Assembly (NCBI GenBank): GCA_905618905.1
Contig: CAJQTH010000020.1
Coordinates: 1 to 45,618, forward strand
Source of the DNA: an uncultured Candidatus Pelagibacter sp.
Lineage (GTDB): Bacteria; Pseudomonadota; Alphaproteobacteria; Pelagibacterales; Pelagibacteraceae
DNA length: 45,618 bases
Direction: 5' to 3'
A program made the position numbers and the translations under genes. The first letter of the stretch is position 1. Each line of letters begins with the position of its first letter. Below are positions 9,737 through 16,890 of this stretch, one piece after another. The notes under the pieces are model-generated. The model was given only the letters and a program-made list of their open reading frames with translations, was not told the origin of the DNA and searched no databases.

Positions 9737-11422
<1,686 letters not shown>

Positions 11423-11450
11423 TCCCGACTATCTAGACTTAAAAATTATA

Positions 11451-11489
11451 AAAACCCCCGCTGTTAAACACTTCGGGGGTTTTTTTTAT
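11451..11489 (+). terminator. Rho-independent terminator after groEL
   Basis: AAAACCCCCG-CTGTTAAACACTT-CGGGGGTTTT followed by a T run. Confidence 0.92.
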
Positions 11490-11497
11490 CTCGGTTA

Positions 11498-11541
11498 CAA
11501 TGTAGTAACAATGTAAATTCAATGTAAATTCAATGTAGTGA
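11498..11541. repeat. Four tandem 11-bp units: CAATGTAGTAA CAATGTAAATT CAATGTAAATT CAATGTAGTGA
   Basis: Read directly from sequence; units at 11498, 11509, 11520, 11531. Confidence 0.95.
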
Positions 11542-11578
11542 TCTTCGCTGTTTTCGTCTAGATTTACAGAAGAAAAAA

Positions 11579-13492
11579 TTAATTTTCATAAGTTTTTATA
11601 TAAAATCTCATAAAATCTTCACTCATTAAAGAAGATCCTTCAATTGTTAGATGTGAGTTATCTCTATGGGTTATTATATTTGTTTTTTTGTCAAAAACCT
11701 TACAAATTCTACTTGGACAAATTAAATTATATGGATCAAAATAATCAAAATTTGGATTATTATTTATTAATTTTTTTATTTTTAAATTTAAAGATTTAAG
11801 ATTTCTTTTATTTAAATCATCAAAAGTATCATATTCACAATTTATATTTTTAATAAAGCATTTTAAAGGTTCAATATTTGAATTTACATATGGAACTGTT
11901 CCCAATATTAAAATTTTAATTTTTTTATTAAGTTTTTTTTGAATTTCAATCAATTTATATAGAGATTTTTCATCCGATATATTTGTAGCGTACACAACTT
12001 CATTATAATTTTTTTGTAAGTTATTAATTAAATCATAATTAAAACTGGCATTTCCAAAAAGATTTGCTTTATGATTATAATAAATGAAGTCATTTATATT
12101 AATTTCATTAAACATAGGAATAAAATTTGCTGTATGACTATTGCCCTCAATGTAGAAAATTCTATTATTCGTTATACCTTTTTTTAAACAATTTATTCTT
12201 AGATTGTATGAATTTAATTTCTTAATCTCTGAGGATTCAGTACAAAAACGATAAATTTCATTTCCATTAATATTAATTTTATAAAATACAACTCTATCTG
12301 TATAATTAATCTTATTTTCTAAATAGTTTAAATTATATATTAGATTTTTAAATTTATATTTTATTGGACTATTATAACTATCCTTAAAAGCAAAAATATT
12401 TATTATCAAAATTATAGATAATACAATTGTACCAAAAATTATATTTCTAAAATTAAAACGAATATTAAATTTTGAATATCTAAACTTATTTTCAATAATC
12501 CAAAAAGAAAGAAAAGATAATGATATAATTATTAAAAATAATAATGGTATTCTAAATAAAGATTGTAAAAAATATAAATCATAAAAATAAATAACTGGTA
12601 AATGCCACAGATAAAATGAGTAAGAAACATTACCTAAAAAAAGCATAGGTTTGTTTTCAATTATATAATTTGATAATTTATTTTCATTTTTCTTGTAAAA
12701 TAAAATAAATATAGATGTTAAAATACAAGTTATAAGAATTGTATTTGGTAGATTAATATTTTTTGGGATTAATATAAAAAAAAATAATACCAATAACGCT
12801 GATAAAGATAGGTGGTTATTTTTAATTTTAATTTTTTTGGTTAAAAAAAAAGTCAATGTTCCAATTAAAAATTCCCAAAATCTAAATAAAGGTGAATAAA
12901 ATATTAATTTTATATTTTCTACAAAAATATTTGAAAAAACTATCCCAATAAAAACCAATAAAGATAATATTAAAATACTTTTTATATATTTTTCATATTT
13001 TAATATAAAAAATAATAGTAATGGAAAAATAATATAAAACTGTTCCTCAACCCCTAATGACCAAGTGTGAGCAAATGGATCATCAAATACTGTATCAAAA
13101 TAATCTTTTTTTAAAAAAAGATAATAAAAATTTGAAACTCCGAATAATGAAAAAAAATAAACCTTTAGATTGTTTAAAAATAAATCTAATGGTTGAAGAA
13201 AAATTATAAGAAAAAGGGAAATAGTAAGAATAAAAAATAATACAGGATAAATTCTTTTAAATCTTCTTGTATAAAAATTATAAAAATCAAATTTTTTTGT
13301 TTTTTCTATTTCTTTAGAAATAATTGAAGTAATAACAAAACCCGAAATTACAAAAAAAATGTCTACTCCTAAAAAACCATAATCAAAATAACTTAAATTT
13401 AGGTGGTAAAAAAAAACTATTATTACCGAAATACCTCTTAAAAATTGAATATGATTTAAGACTTTTTGATTATTTTTTTTGGTAATTTTCAT
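11579..13492 (-). CDS. OafA/YrhL-type membrane acyltransferase with C-terminal SGNH-like domain
   Basis: N-terminal LRGISVIIVFFYHL...GFLGVDIFFVISGFVIT, HTWSLGVEEQFYIIFP, many TM segments; C-terminal EGNSHTANF and DNSHLTIEG fit an SGNH domain. Confidence 0.92.
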   Translation of the reverse strand: MKITKKNNQKVLNHIQFLRGISVIIVFFYHLNLSYFDYGFLGVDIFFVISGFVITSIISKEIEKTKKFDFYNFYTRRFKRIYPVLFFILTISLFLIIFLQPLDLFLNNLKVYFFSLFGVSNFYYLFLKKDYFDTVFDDPFAHTWSLGVEEQFYIIFPLLLFFILKYEKYIKSILILSLLVFIGIVFSNIFVENIKLIFYSPLFRFWEFLIGTLTFFLTKKIKIKNNHLSLSALLVLFFFILIPKNINLPNTILITCILTSIFILFYKKNENKLSNYIIENKPMLFLGNVSYSFYLWHLPVIYFYDLYFLQSLFRIPLLFLIIISLSFLSFWIIENKFRYSKFNIRFNFRNIIFGTIVLSIILIINIFAFKDSYNSPIKYKFKNLIYNLNYLENKINYTDRVVFYKININGNEIYRFCTESSEIKKLNSYNLRINCLKKGITNNRIFYIEGNSHTANFIPMFNEININDFIYYNHKANLFGNASFNYDLINNLQKNYNEVVYATNISDEKSLYKLIEIQKKLNKKIKILILGTVPYVNSNIEPLKCFIKNINCEYDTFDDLNKRNLKSLNLKIKKLINNNPNFDYFDPYNLICPSRICKVFDKKTNIITHRDNSHLTIEGSSLMSEDFMRFYIKTYEN

Positions 13493-13664
13493 TACATATA
13501 ATTATCTAAATTTTTATACACAATAAACTCTAAATATCAGCAATACTATTTTGTAGTTCTACATTACAGATATTGTGTCTAATAACCTTATCATTTGGTG
13601 GAACGGTACTTTCTCTTTTTAAGGAATTAAAAACCCAAGATTGAGGAAATTTCTAACGCAGTTT

Positions 13665-13715
13665 GATAGAGTAGGTAAGCAAAAAGAAGAGGAATAAAGA
13701 TAGAGTACGTAAGCA
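13665..13715. repeat. 17-bp direct repeat GATAGAGTA(G/C)GTAAGCA
   Basis: 13665-13681 and 13699-13715 differ at one position. Confidence 0.9.
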
Positions 13716-13722
13716 TTATAAC

Positions 13723-13753
13723 ACTACATTGAATATCAATTATTCAATGTAGT
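13723..13753. repeat. Perfect 13-bp inverted repeat with 5-nt loop
   Basis: ACTACATTGAATA-TCAAT-TATTCAATGTAGT; arms contain the CAATGTAGT core. Confidence 0.95.
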
Positions 13754-13874
13754 AATCTTCTGAAAGTTGGACGAGTTTGAGGTTAGATTTCTCGTAGTTA
13801 CAATGTAGTGATTTAAAAATTGGTATTTTTTTAAACTTTTCATTTGAGGAATGCAAATTTAATATAAGGACTAA

Positions 13875-13991
13875 TGCGGACGTAACGCAGGTGAAATGGT
13901 TGACAAGATTACTATTGAGTATAATAGCAGTCATCAAGCAGCTATTCCAAAAGAACTAATTGAAATCATATCAGGAGCGGAAAGTTTATAA
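13875..13991 (+). pseudogene. C-terminal remnant of ATP synthase gamma subunit (atpG)
   Basis: Translates as [38 protein letters not shown], matching the expected AtpG C-terminus (...[30 protein letters not shown]) with substitutions; preceded in frame by TAA. Confidence 0.88.
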
Positions 13992-13993
13992 TT

Positions 13994-14176
13994 ATGAGCA
14001 AAGGAAAAATCACACAGATCATTGGAGCAGTAGTAGACGTAAAATTTGATGGAGAATTACCAGAAATTTTATCAGCATTAGAATGTAAAAATGGAGACAA
14101 CAGATTAGTTTTAGAAGTTGCTCAGCACCTTGGTGAATCAAGTGTTAGAACAATTGCAATGGATGCTACGACGTAA
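13994..14176 (+). pseudogene. Truncated ATP synthase beta subunit (first 60 codons of atpD)
   Basis: [60 protein letters not shown] is the AtpD N-terminus, truncated at MDAT. Confidence 0.93.
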
Positions 14177-14187
14177 TTTAAAAATTT

Positions 14188-14940
14188 ATGAATAACTTTA
14201 ATAAAGAAATAGTTGAAATATCAAAAAATCCATTTCGAATATTTAGCATAAATAACTTTTTTGATTATAATTTTTATTTAGATATTAGAAAACTTTTTGA
14301 TAAATTAGGTCCTAAAGAACTTAGTTTGACAAAAAATTTTGGAAAAACTTTTATTACTTCAGATGAGGCTAATTTTGATAATGATAAAGAAAATCAAATA
14401 TTTTCCAAGTTAAATAAAATTATATTTAGTGATGAATTTTTTTATTTTTTTGTTAAAAATTCTTACATTAAAAATGTTATGTCACAGAGTAGTATTTTGA
14501 GAAAAATAAAATATTCAAGGTATCCAATTTTACAAAATAGCAAAGTTTCATTATTAGATTTTTTATTTTCTAAAATTAGTGTTTCATACAATTTTAGCTA
14601 TATAAAAAATAATGGTGGGATTGTCCCACACGTTGATTCACAGAGAAAATACCTATCTTTATTACTTTACTTCCCTGATGATATTGAAAAAGAAACTGAA
14701 TATGGATCATCATTTTGGTCGTCTAAAAGTCCAAATTTTTCTAATACTCACATTTCGGATGTAGCTAAAATAAATGAATTTAAAAATAATAGTAAAGTAT
14801 TGTTTAAAGCACCATTTGTTTCTAACTGTTTATATGGCTTCAACAGAAATGATTTTTCGTGGCACACTGTTGAACCTATAGATGTTAATCCTAATTATGT
14901 AAGAAAATCATTAAACATAAATTTAATATACCAAAATTAA
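14188..14940 (+). CDS. 2OG-Fe(II) oxygenase-like protein
   Basis: HVD (14629-14637), distal SWHTVEP histidine and YVRKSLNIN arginine fit the HxD...H...R pattern of the 2OG-Fe(II) dioxygenase fold. Confidence 0.7.
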   Translation: MNNFNKEIVEISKNPFRIFSINNFFDYNFYLDIRKLFDKLGPKELSLTKNFGKTFITSDEANFDNDKENQIFSKLNKIIFSDEFFYFFVKNSYIKNVMSQSSILRKIKYSRYPILQNSKVSLLDFLFSKISVSYNFSYIKNNGGIVPHVDSQRKYLSLLLYFPDDIEKETEYGSSFWSSKSPNFSNTHISDVAKINEFKNNSKVLFKAPFVSNCLYGFNRNDFSWHTVEPIDVNPNYVRKSLNINLIYQN

Positions 14941-14977
14941 TTATTATGTAATTCCACTCTTTTTAAAAAAGAATTCA

Positions 14978-15145: not shown

Positions 15146-16890
15146 ACTTTAGCTCTTTTTTGACTATGTTTTTTGAAGGTGAAGCTTTTAGGTCTATCAC
15201 TTCTACTTTTGAACTTCTTCTTTCCATCAAAACTAGAGCTTTTTTTTTCTCCACTAATGGATGAACTTTCAGATATTTTTTTTCCAAAGTATTTTGGATT
15301 ATTTGTGAATCCTGTAGGTTTCGAGTTATCTTTTTTTGTAAAACTAGATTTTCCTTTGTAACCAAAACTTTTTTTCTCTCCATCTCTTGATGATGAACTT
15401 GATCTTCCATAACTAGATGATTTTGACTTGTCCCCAAAACTAGATTTTCCTTTGTAACCAAAACTTTTTTTCTCTCCATCTCTTGATGATGAACTTGATC
15501 TTCCATAACTAGATGATTTTGACTTGTCCCCAAAACTAGATTTTCCTTTGTAACCAAAACTTTTTTTCTCTCCATCTCTTGATGATGAACTTGATCTTTC
15601 ATAACTAGATGATTTTGACTTGTCCCCAAAACTAGATTTTCCTTTGTAACCAAAACTTTTTTTCTCTCCATCTCTTGATGATGAACTTGATCTTCCTTTA
15701 CCAAAAGATTTTTTTTCATCTCTGAATTTTCTTTTTTTATTGTAAGGAGCTTTTCCTCTTTTTCCTCCTCCTGAATCTCCTCTTGCGCCACGTGGTGCAG
15801 GTTTAAAATTTGGATCAATTAATTTACTAATTTCATTCCACATCGATCTGTCATCTGGAGTAAGAAAAGTTAAAGCAGAACCTTCTGTCCCAGCTCTAGC
15901 TGTTCTTCCAATTCTGTGAACATAATCTTCTGGAACTTGTGGAAGATCAAAATTAATTACGTGCTGGATTAATGGAATATCCAGTCCTCTCGCAGCAACA
16001 TCAGTTGCTATTAATATTCTTTTAAGGCCTTTTCTAAATGAAGTGATTACACGATCTCTTTTACTTTGACGAAGATCTCCATGAATAGCATCAGCTGAAT
16101 GACCCTCTTCTTTAAGACGCTTAACCATTTTATCAGCACCTCGCTTAGTTTTAACAAAAACTAGTATTGATCCTTTTCTTGCTATAAATTGGTCTACTAG
16201 TTGATCGTATTTATTTTCTTTAAAAACTTGAAGAGTTTCTTGTTTAATTTTTGCGATTGGTACTGATGTTGACCCTGTAGAAATTCTTTGAGGCTTATTT
16301 AGATATCTTTCAGAAATTCTAACAATATTCTGAGGTAGTGTTGCAGAAAATAATAAAGTTTGATGATCTTTTGGAACAAATTTTAAAATTAATTCTATTT
16401 GAGGGGTAAAACCCATATCTAGCATTCTGTCAGTTTCATCTAGTACTAGATATTTAGTAGCTGATAGATTTAAACTTTTTCTTTTTAAGTGGTCATTAAT
16501 TCTTCCAGGAGTTCCAACTATTATTCTTGATCTATTACCTAGTTGTCTAAGCTGTTTTTGCATTGCCTCTCCACCAATAAGCAAAGCAGTTTTAATATTA
16601 ATTTTATCACTAATAATGCTTTTAATTGCAGCCATTACTTGAGTTGCAAGCTCTCTAGTTGGACACATAACTAATGCAAATGCATTTTTATCTAATATTA
16701 ATTTATTAATTAAAGGAACACTAAAAGCTAAAGTTTTTCCTGTTCCTGTTTGTGCTGTTCCTAAAATATCTTTTCCCTCTAAAGCAACTGGTATTGCCAT
16801 TGCTTGAATTGGAGTTGGTTTCGTAAACTTCATTTTTTCCAATGAATTTTTTAACGAATCTTCTATTTTTAATAATTTAAAATTTTCCAT
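15142..16890 (-). CDS. DEAD-box RNA helicase with repetitive RGG/S-K-rich tail
   Basis: GTAQTGTGKT, PTRELA, VLDETDRML (DETD variant of DEAD), SATLP, HRIGRTARAG. Confidence 0.96.
   Translation of the reverse strand: MENFKLLKIEDSLKNSLEKMKFTKPTPIQAMAIPVALEGKDILGTAQTGTGKTLAFSVPLINKLILDKNAFALVMCPTRELATQVMAAIKSIISDKINIKTALLIGGEAMQKQLRQLGNRSRIIVGTPGRINDHLKRKSLNLSATKYLVLDETDRMLDMGFTPQIELILKFVPKDHQTLLFSATLPQNIVRISERYLNKPQRISTGSTSVPIAKIKQETLQVFKENKYDQLVDQFIARKGSILVFVKTKRGADKMVKRLKEEGHSADAIHGDLRQSKRDRVITSFRKGLKRILIATDVAARGLDIPLIQHVINFDLPQVPEDYVHRIGRTARAGTEGSALTFLTPDDRSMWNEISKLIDPNFKPAPRGARGDSGGGKRGKAPYNKKRKFRDEKKSFGKGRSSSSSRDGEKKSFGYKGKSSFGDKSKSSSYERSSSSSRDGEKKSFGYKGKSSFGDKSKSSSYGRSSSSSRDGEKKSFGYKGKSSFGDKSKSSSYGRSSSSSRDGEKKSFGYKGKSSFTKKDNSKPTGFTNNPKYFGKKISESSSISGEKKSSSFDGKKKFKSRSDRPKSFTFKKHSQKRAKV
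15341..15697. repeat. 96-bp tandem repeat, about 3.7 copies, in the helicase C-terminal coding region
   Basis: AAACTAGATTTTCCTTTGTAACC recurs at 15341, 15437, 15533, 15629 (exact 96-bp period); encodes a 32-aa unit SSSSSRDGEKKSFGYKGKSSFGDKSKSSSYGR. Confidence 0.96.

Follow-up and report, generated by a model that had tools for sequence, protein, structure and literature searches.

A truncated copy of the atpG-atpD junction within a cargo islet of a Pelagibacter-like genome, at the 3' end of groEL

The groEL islet and its contents

The window, the whole stretch of 45,618 nucleotides that was analyzed, is contig C20 of a draft assembly of 791 kb (47 contigs, 58% complete). Between groEL and a downstream neighbor, DEAD-box helicase/typA, it carries an islet in which an acyltransferase gene, a recombinase relic, a conserved right end, an atp fragment and an oxygenase-like gene follow one another. 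In three relatives (G001, G012 and G024), the groEL end is joined directly to sequence homologous to window position 14946, indicating that the window has an insertion of approximately 3.5 kb; the islet is also an insertion relative to G028. The features of the locus are given below.

9755-11422, plus strand: groEL (PF00118, E 1.4e-82); from spacer and motif analysis, insertion appears to take place at its 3' end (GGCATGGGAATGTAATCCC)
11427-14945, no strand: islet between groEL and the displaced downstream spacer, from comparison with relatives
11493-11572, plus strand: left end of the first islet unit, with CAATGTAGT-type repeats, resembling the left end of the G357 islet
11579-13492, minus strand: cargo gene encoding an acyltransferase (AT3) fused to an SGNH domain (PF01757, PF19040)
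13533-13658, minus strand: relic of a serine recombinase C-terminus (tblastn, 69% over 42 aa to G315 L130:4749-5489), catalytic domain missing
13739-13863, plus strand: right end of the first islet unit, conserved in G022, G298, G357 and, in part, G382
13848-13863, plus strand: degenerate copy of the groEL 3' end (GGAATGCAAATTTAAT) closing the first unit on the right, from alignment and below the motif-scan threshold
13875-13991, plus strand: open frame, AtpG tail, with private changes L to I, R to S, R to H and T to P
13879-13885, plus strand: left copy of the 7-bp direct repeat GACGTAA
13886-14169, plus strand: duplicated atpG-atpD junction fragment, 284 bp, DNA match to the operon of relatives
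13994-14176, plus strand: truncated AtpD frame, 60 codons to TAA, beginning MSKGKITQ, without private substitutions
14170-14176, plus strand: right copy of GACGTAA
14188-14940, plus strand: cargo gene for a protein resembling 2-oxoglutarate/Fe(II) oxygenases (HxD...H...R), judged complete from its distant homologues
14946-14955, plus strand: remainder of the groEL 3' end (ATGTAATTCC); here the displaced downstream spacer begins, with a terminator-like hairpin of its own

G022, G298 and G357, and in part G382, share the conserved right end of approximately 125 bp with the window and differ in cargo; a search of this right end for known RNAs gave only sub-threshold Rfam matches. A phage origin was considered and rejected, as the region and the oxygenase had no match in phage records; the atpG-atpD junction pattern and the oxygenase were likewise not matched in viral contigs.

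The oxygenase-like gene starts at its own ATG, 11 nt past the TAA of the truncated AtpD frame and on the same strand, with no clear SD of its own. Its product had no match in Pfam; homologues in four congeners are distant (up to 38%) and have the PHxD, WH and R positions in common. A structural model of low confidence (pLDDT 61) gave a Foldseek match to 2-oxoglutarate oxygenases (E 2.5e-6), and the protein encoded at 14188-14940 may, at low confidence, resemble these enzymes. Further downstream, the DEAD-box helicase gene contains repeated 96-bp units toward its 3' end (window positions 15340-15720), the copy number of which may vary among relatives, judging from self-overlapping matches.

The atp fragment and its native counterpart

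A sequence-only reading of this DNA had described a truncated copy of the atpG-atpD junction outside the ATP synthase operon, and this description was confirmed by DNA identity, by Pfam matches to both parts and by a separate native atpD; the 3.5-kb islet around the copy was not part of that description. Positions 13881-14169 (289 bp) are 83-95% identical at the DNA level to the atpG-atpD junction of congeners (83-96% for 13886-14169), which excludes a chance match and makes the observation real. The AtpG-tail frame of 38 codons matches PF00231 (E 1.4e-10), is preceded by the in-frame TAA that had been pointed out (13872-13874) and contains, as had also been noted, an SD-like AGGAGCG (13973-13979). 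After a gap of 2 nt follows the AtpD frame, residues 6-60 of which match the beta-subunit N-terminal barrel (PF02874, E 8.2e-15). All 60 codons had been assigned to AtpD, an assignment that holds for residues 1-59 and not for residue 60, since the matched DNA stops at 14169 and the last 7 bases of the open reading frame are therefore not atpD. Neither part represents a functional gene, as only 38 and 60 codons are present and the R, R, T of the gamma C-terminal motif are replaced. The changes reported at these positions (NSSHQAAIP) are indeed private; in a codon-by-codon comparison, 27 of 27 relatives keep R, R, T.

The native counterpart lies on contig C21, which enters atpD near codon 49 and runs into the beginning of atpC. 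The first 30 bases of C21 are identical to 14140-14169, after which C21 diverges into the native atpD-atpC sequence; this overlap followed by divergence fixes the right edge of the fragment at 14169 and means that two copies are present in the same genome. A general overlap signature of the assembler was rejected as an explanation, because the 30-bp overlap of C21 is the sole one among the unmasked contig ends. The expectation that a complete atp operon would be found elsewhere in the genome was borne out for the downstream half, on C21; the upstream genes were not found among the genome's own contigs, an absence that means little given that nine contigs of less than 3 kb were masked. A search for the decayed atpG string in genome_contigs returned no match.

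Both edges of the copy are clear breakpoints relative to native sequence. While the right edge is exact from comparison with C21, the left edge is at 13886 or as much as 20 bp before it, as the 20 bp to the left of 13886 resemble atpG weakly (p of about 0.03, or 0.12 when compared against sites ending in GTAA). The two GACGTAA copies directly flank 13886-14169; random pairs of places share at least 7 bases with a frequency of 0.0012, taken here as the chance of such a repeat. These flanks fit an insertion at a staggered break; if the similarity to atpG does extend approximately 20 bp further left, the left GACGTAA would lie inside the copy. The two junctions (AATATAAGGACTAATGCGGACGTAACGCAGG and GGATGCTACGACGTAATTTAAAAATTTATG) are known from the assembly alone.

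Compared with eleven relatives, the fragment has four private substitutions (at 13908, 13928, 13933 and 13947), all of which change amino acids in the atpG tail at residues conserved in relatives, suggesting that this part is not under selection as AtpG. These four substitutions are confined to the first 62 bases; 13948-14169 (222 bases, including the atpD part) has none. Under neutral decay alone they would be expected to lie more evenly, and this clustering speaks against the explanation favored below; it may reflect a young copy that was changed on its left when it was joined, gene conversion from the native copy, or an assembler that merged both copies. The atpD part is itself a mosaic, G134-like up to 14121 and like its own lineage from 14137, so the donor may have been another lineage or, following recombination, the genome itself. 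An age estimate from distance was rejected, because this recombination blurs it.

Origin of the fragment

Of 399 genomes of the genus, 331 matched the atpG-atpD segment, nearly all of them once, as expected for the operon; this survey scored the two best candidates per genome, and weak further copies could escape it. In the genomes that were searched again, second matches were short and weak, with the exception of G552, in which a second copy (L225:13135-13906, 772 bp, 99.6% identical) lies approximately 11 kb from the operon copy and adjoins a frame read as a cut-off HisC. The G552 copy is probably a chimera. Apart from it, the recurrence in related genomes that had been suggested was found in none of the 399 congeners; the fragment is also absent from the other surveyed groEL islets, and no relative was found to have its pre-insertion site.

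The best explanation, to which we assign a probability of about 0.7, is that a duplicate of the atpG-atpD junction, inert and by now decayed in part, was taken up through recombination into the groEL 3' cargo islet of a Pelagibacter-like genome. An element with a serine recombinase would have inserted at groEL and lost its recombinase afterwards, and a second insertion carrying the oxygenase gene could have landed at that element's right end, where the atp fragment may have been joined through staggered-break repair or together with incoming DNA. The short AtpD frame is probably a by-product of this capture. The earlier proposal of a recombination scar outside the operon thus gains support from the native atpD on C21, the absence of the insertion in relatives, the insertion hotspot, the relic recombinase and the 7-bp flanking repeat; that the scar is recent is only partly supported, since the atpG part is already without conserved residues.

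Rather unlikely, although the most probable of the alternatives, is a chimera of amplification or assembly, in which a piece of the atp operon was joined in vitro into the contig of the groEL islet. The assembly is a draft with the fragmentation and incompleteness given above, and multiple displacement amplification is known to be prone to chimeras (PMC1855051). Two matching relatives bear apparent single-cell isolate names, so amplification chimeras are possible in such data and G552, whose second copy looks like one, stands as a warning for the window. However, a chimera would require two junctions in direct orientation, whereas more than 85% of the chimeras from this method are inversions (PMC1855051), and four private changes at conserved atpG residues are unlikely in a fresh copy. 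The atpD part also differs from G706 at 11 positions where the genome's own atpD would predict approximately 3, an excess that recombination inside the native gene could explain.

The sequence-only reading had also considered a captured translation-initiation module. In such a module the atpG end, AGGAGCG and the atpD start would form a 5' leader that couples translation to the oxygenase gene. The shared strand, the short distance from the AtpD stop to an ATG without a clear SD and the unchanged atpD part would all suit such a leader. Nevertheless, promoter-like sites are at chance level (5 found, 5.0 expected), no recurrence was seen in the 399 congeners or in other islets, and the oxygenase gene has its own start codon; moreover, an intact atpD part is equally expected from a young copy or from assembler merging with the native copy, and AT-rich frames terminate soon by chance. 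This use of the fragment is consequently unsupported and appears improbable. Promoter capture was rejected as well, given that sites are not in excess and that a TTGACA-N14-TATAAT arrangement (13900-13925) has a spacer below consensus length and also occurs in the native atpG of relatives. Least probable is that the 60-residue AtpD peptide is made and disturbs F1 assembly; even though it spans most of the N-terminal barrel of the beta subunit, it would presumably be a costly product for a streamlined genome, and it occurs only once. A short atpG-atpD match need not mean an operon; as a fragment this one is ordinary, and as a recombination footprint it is in itself of little weight.

The groEL 3' end and known systems

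A better lead than the atp fragment is the site in which it lies. Across 39 loci, the groEL-typA spacer ranges from 134 bp to more than 5 kb, and a motif scan found 11 copies of the groEL 3' end within spacers versus 0.45 expected, several of which are followed by a terminator-like hairpin. Right ends of islets often bear such a copy; in the window, the copies are degenerate. Cargo occupies this site in the window (11423-14955) and in L077, L128, L129, L133 and L226, and recombinase relics are present in several islets. In G315, an intact serine recombinase (PF00239, E 6.3e-29) is encoded at L130:4749-5489, with a thyX-like gene a few kb away; C-terminal relics of this recombinase were also seen near genes identified by eye as thyX-like in G010, G155 and G114.

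Other core-gene scraps in groEL islets were sought and rejected: three islets match unmasked contigs of the genome itself (L081 and L091 match C22, and L239 matches C17), and these matches are taken to be complete genes, either cargo or downstream ones, instead of scraps. In a groEL islet of G134 (L226:1984-3898), small genes are separated and flanked by four repeats around CCTAACCCAACTCTAAAACGAAGTCATC, an array reminiscent of gene cassettes; no integrase gene was recognized among the open reading frames listed there, and the core of the repeat was not found in viral contigs.

Tentatively, and with some doubt, the groEL 3' end could be the attachment site of an undescribed family of small cargo elements of Pelagibacteraceae. 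Such elements would rely on a serine recombinase, bear a groEL-end copy, accumulate in tandem and take along scraps of core genes when they move. No description of a groEL hotspot was found in the accessible parts of the open-access literature on SAR11, groEL and islands, which is not proof of novelty. If used repeatedly, this site would offer a defined place to study the gain and loss of surface-modifying genes in streamlined SAR11.

Three known systems can be compared with the locus. Like the SAR11 HVR1-4 in the available passages of PMC2217521, the groEL spacer holds variable genes within a conserved core, with cell-surface genes among the cargo, but it is much smaller; HVR2 is placed there between the 23S and 5S rRNA, and GroEL is mentioned in those passages only for sequence identity among syntenic fragments. 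Serine-recombinase integrative elements are resembled in the intact PF00239 gene of the related G315 locus, the C-terminal relics in groEL islets, the variable cargo and, at the junctions, recurrent right ends that include a target copy. The window islet differs from these elements in having no intact recombinase, with approximately 42 C-terminal codons left, and both crossover and activity are putative. With partial duplicates and pseudogene fragments at genomic islands, the fragment has in common a truncated core-gene copy with ends cut within genes, decay, and an adjacent recombinase relic and cargo; it differs from them in spanning an intergenic junction, in its unchanged AtpD part and in its 7-bp flanking repeat.
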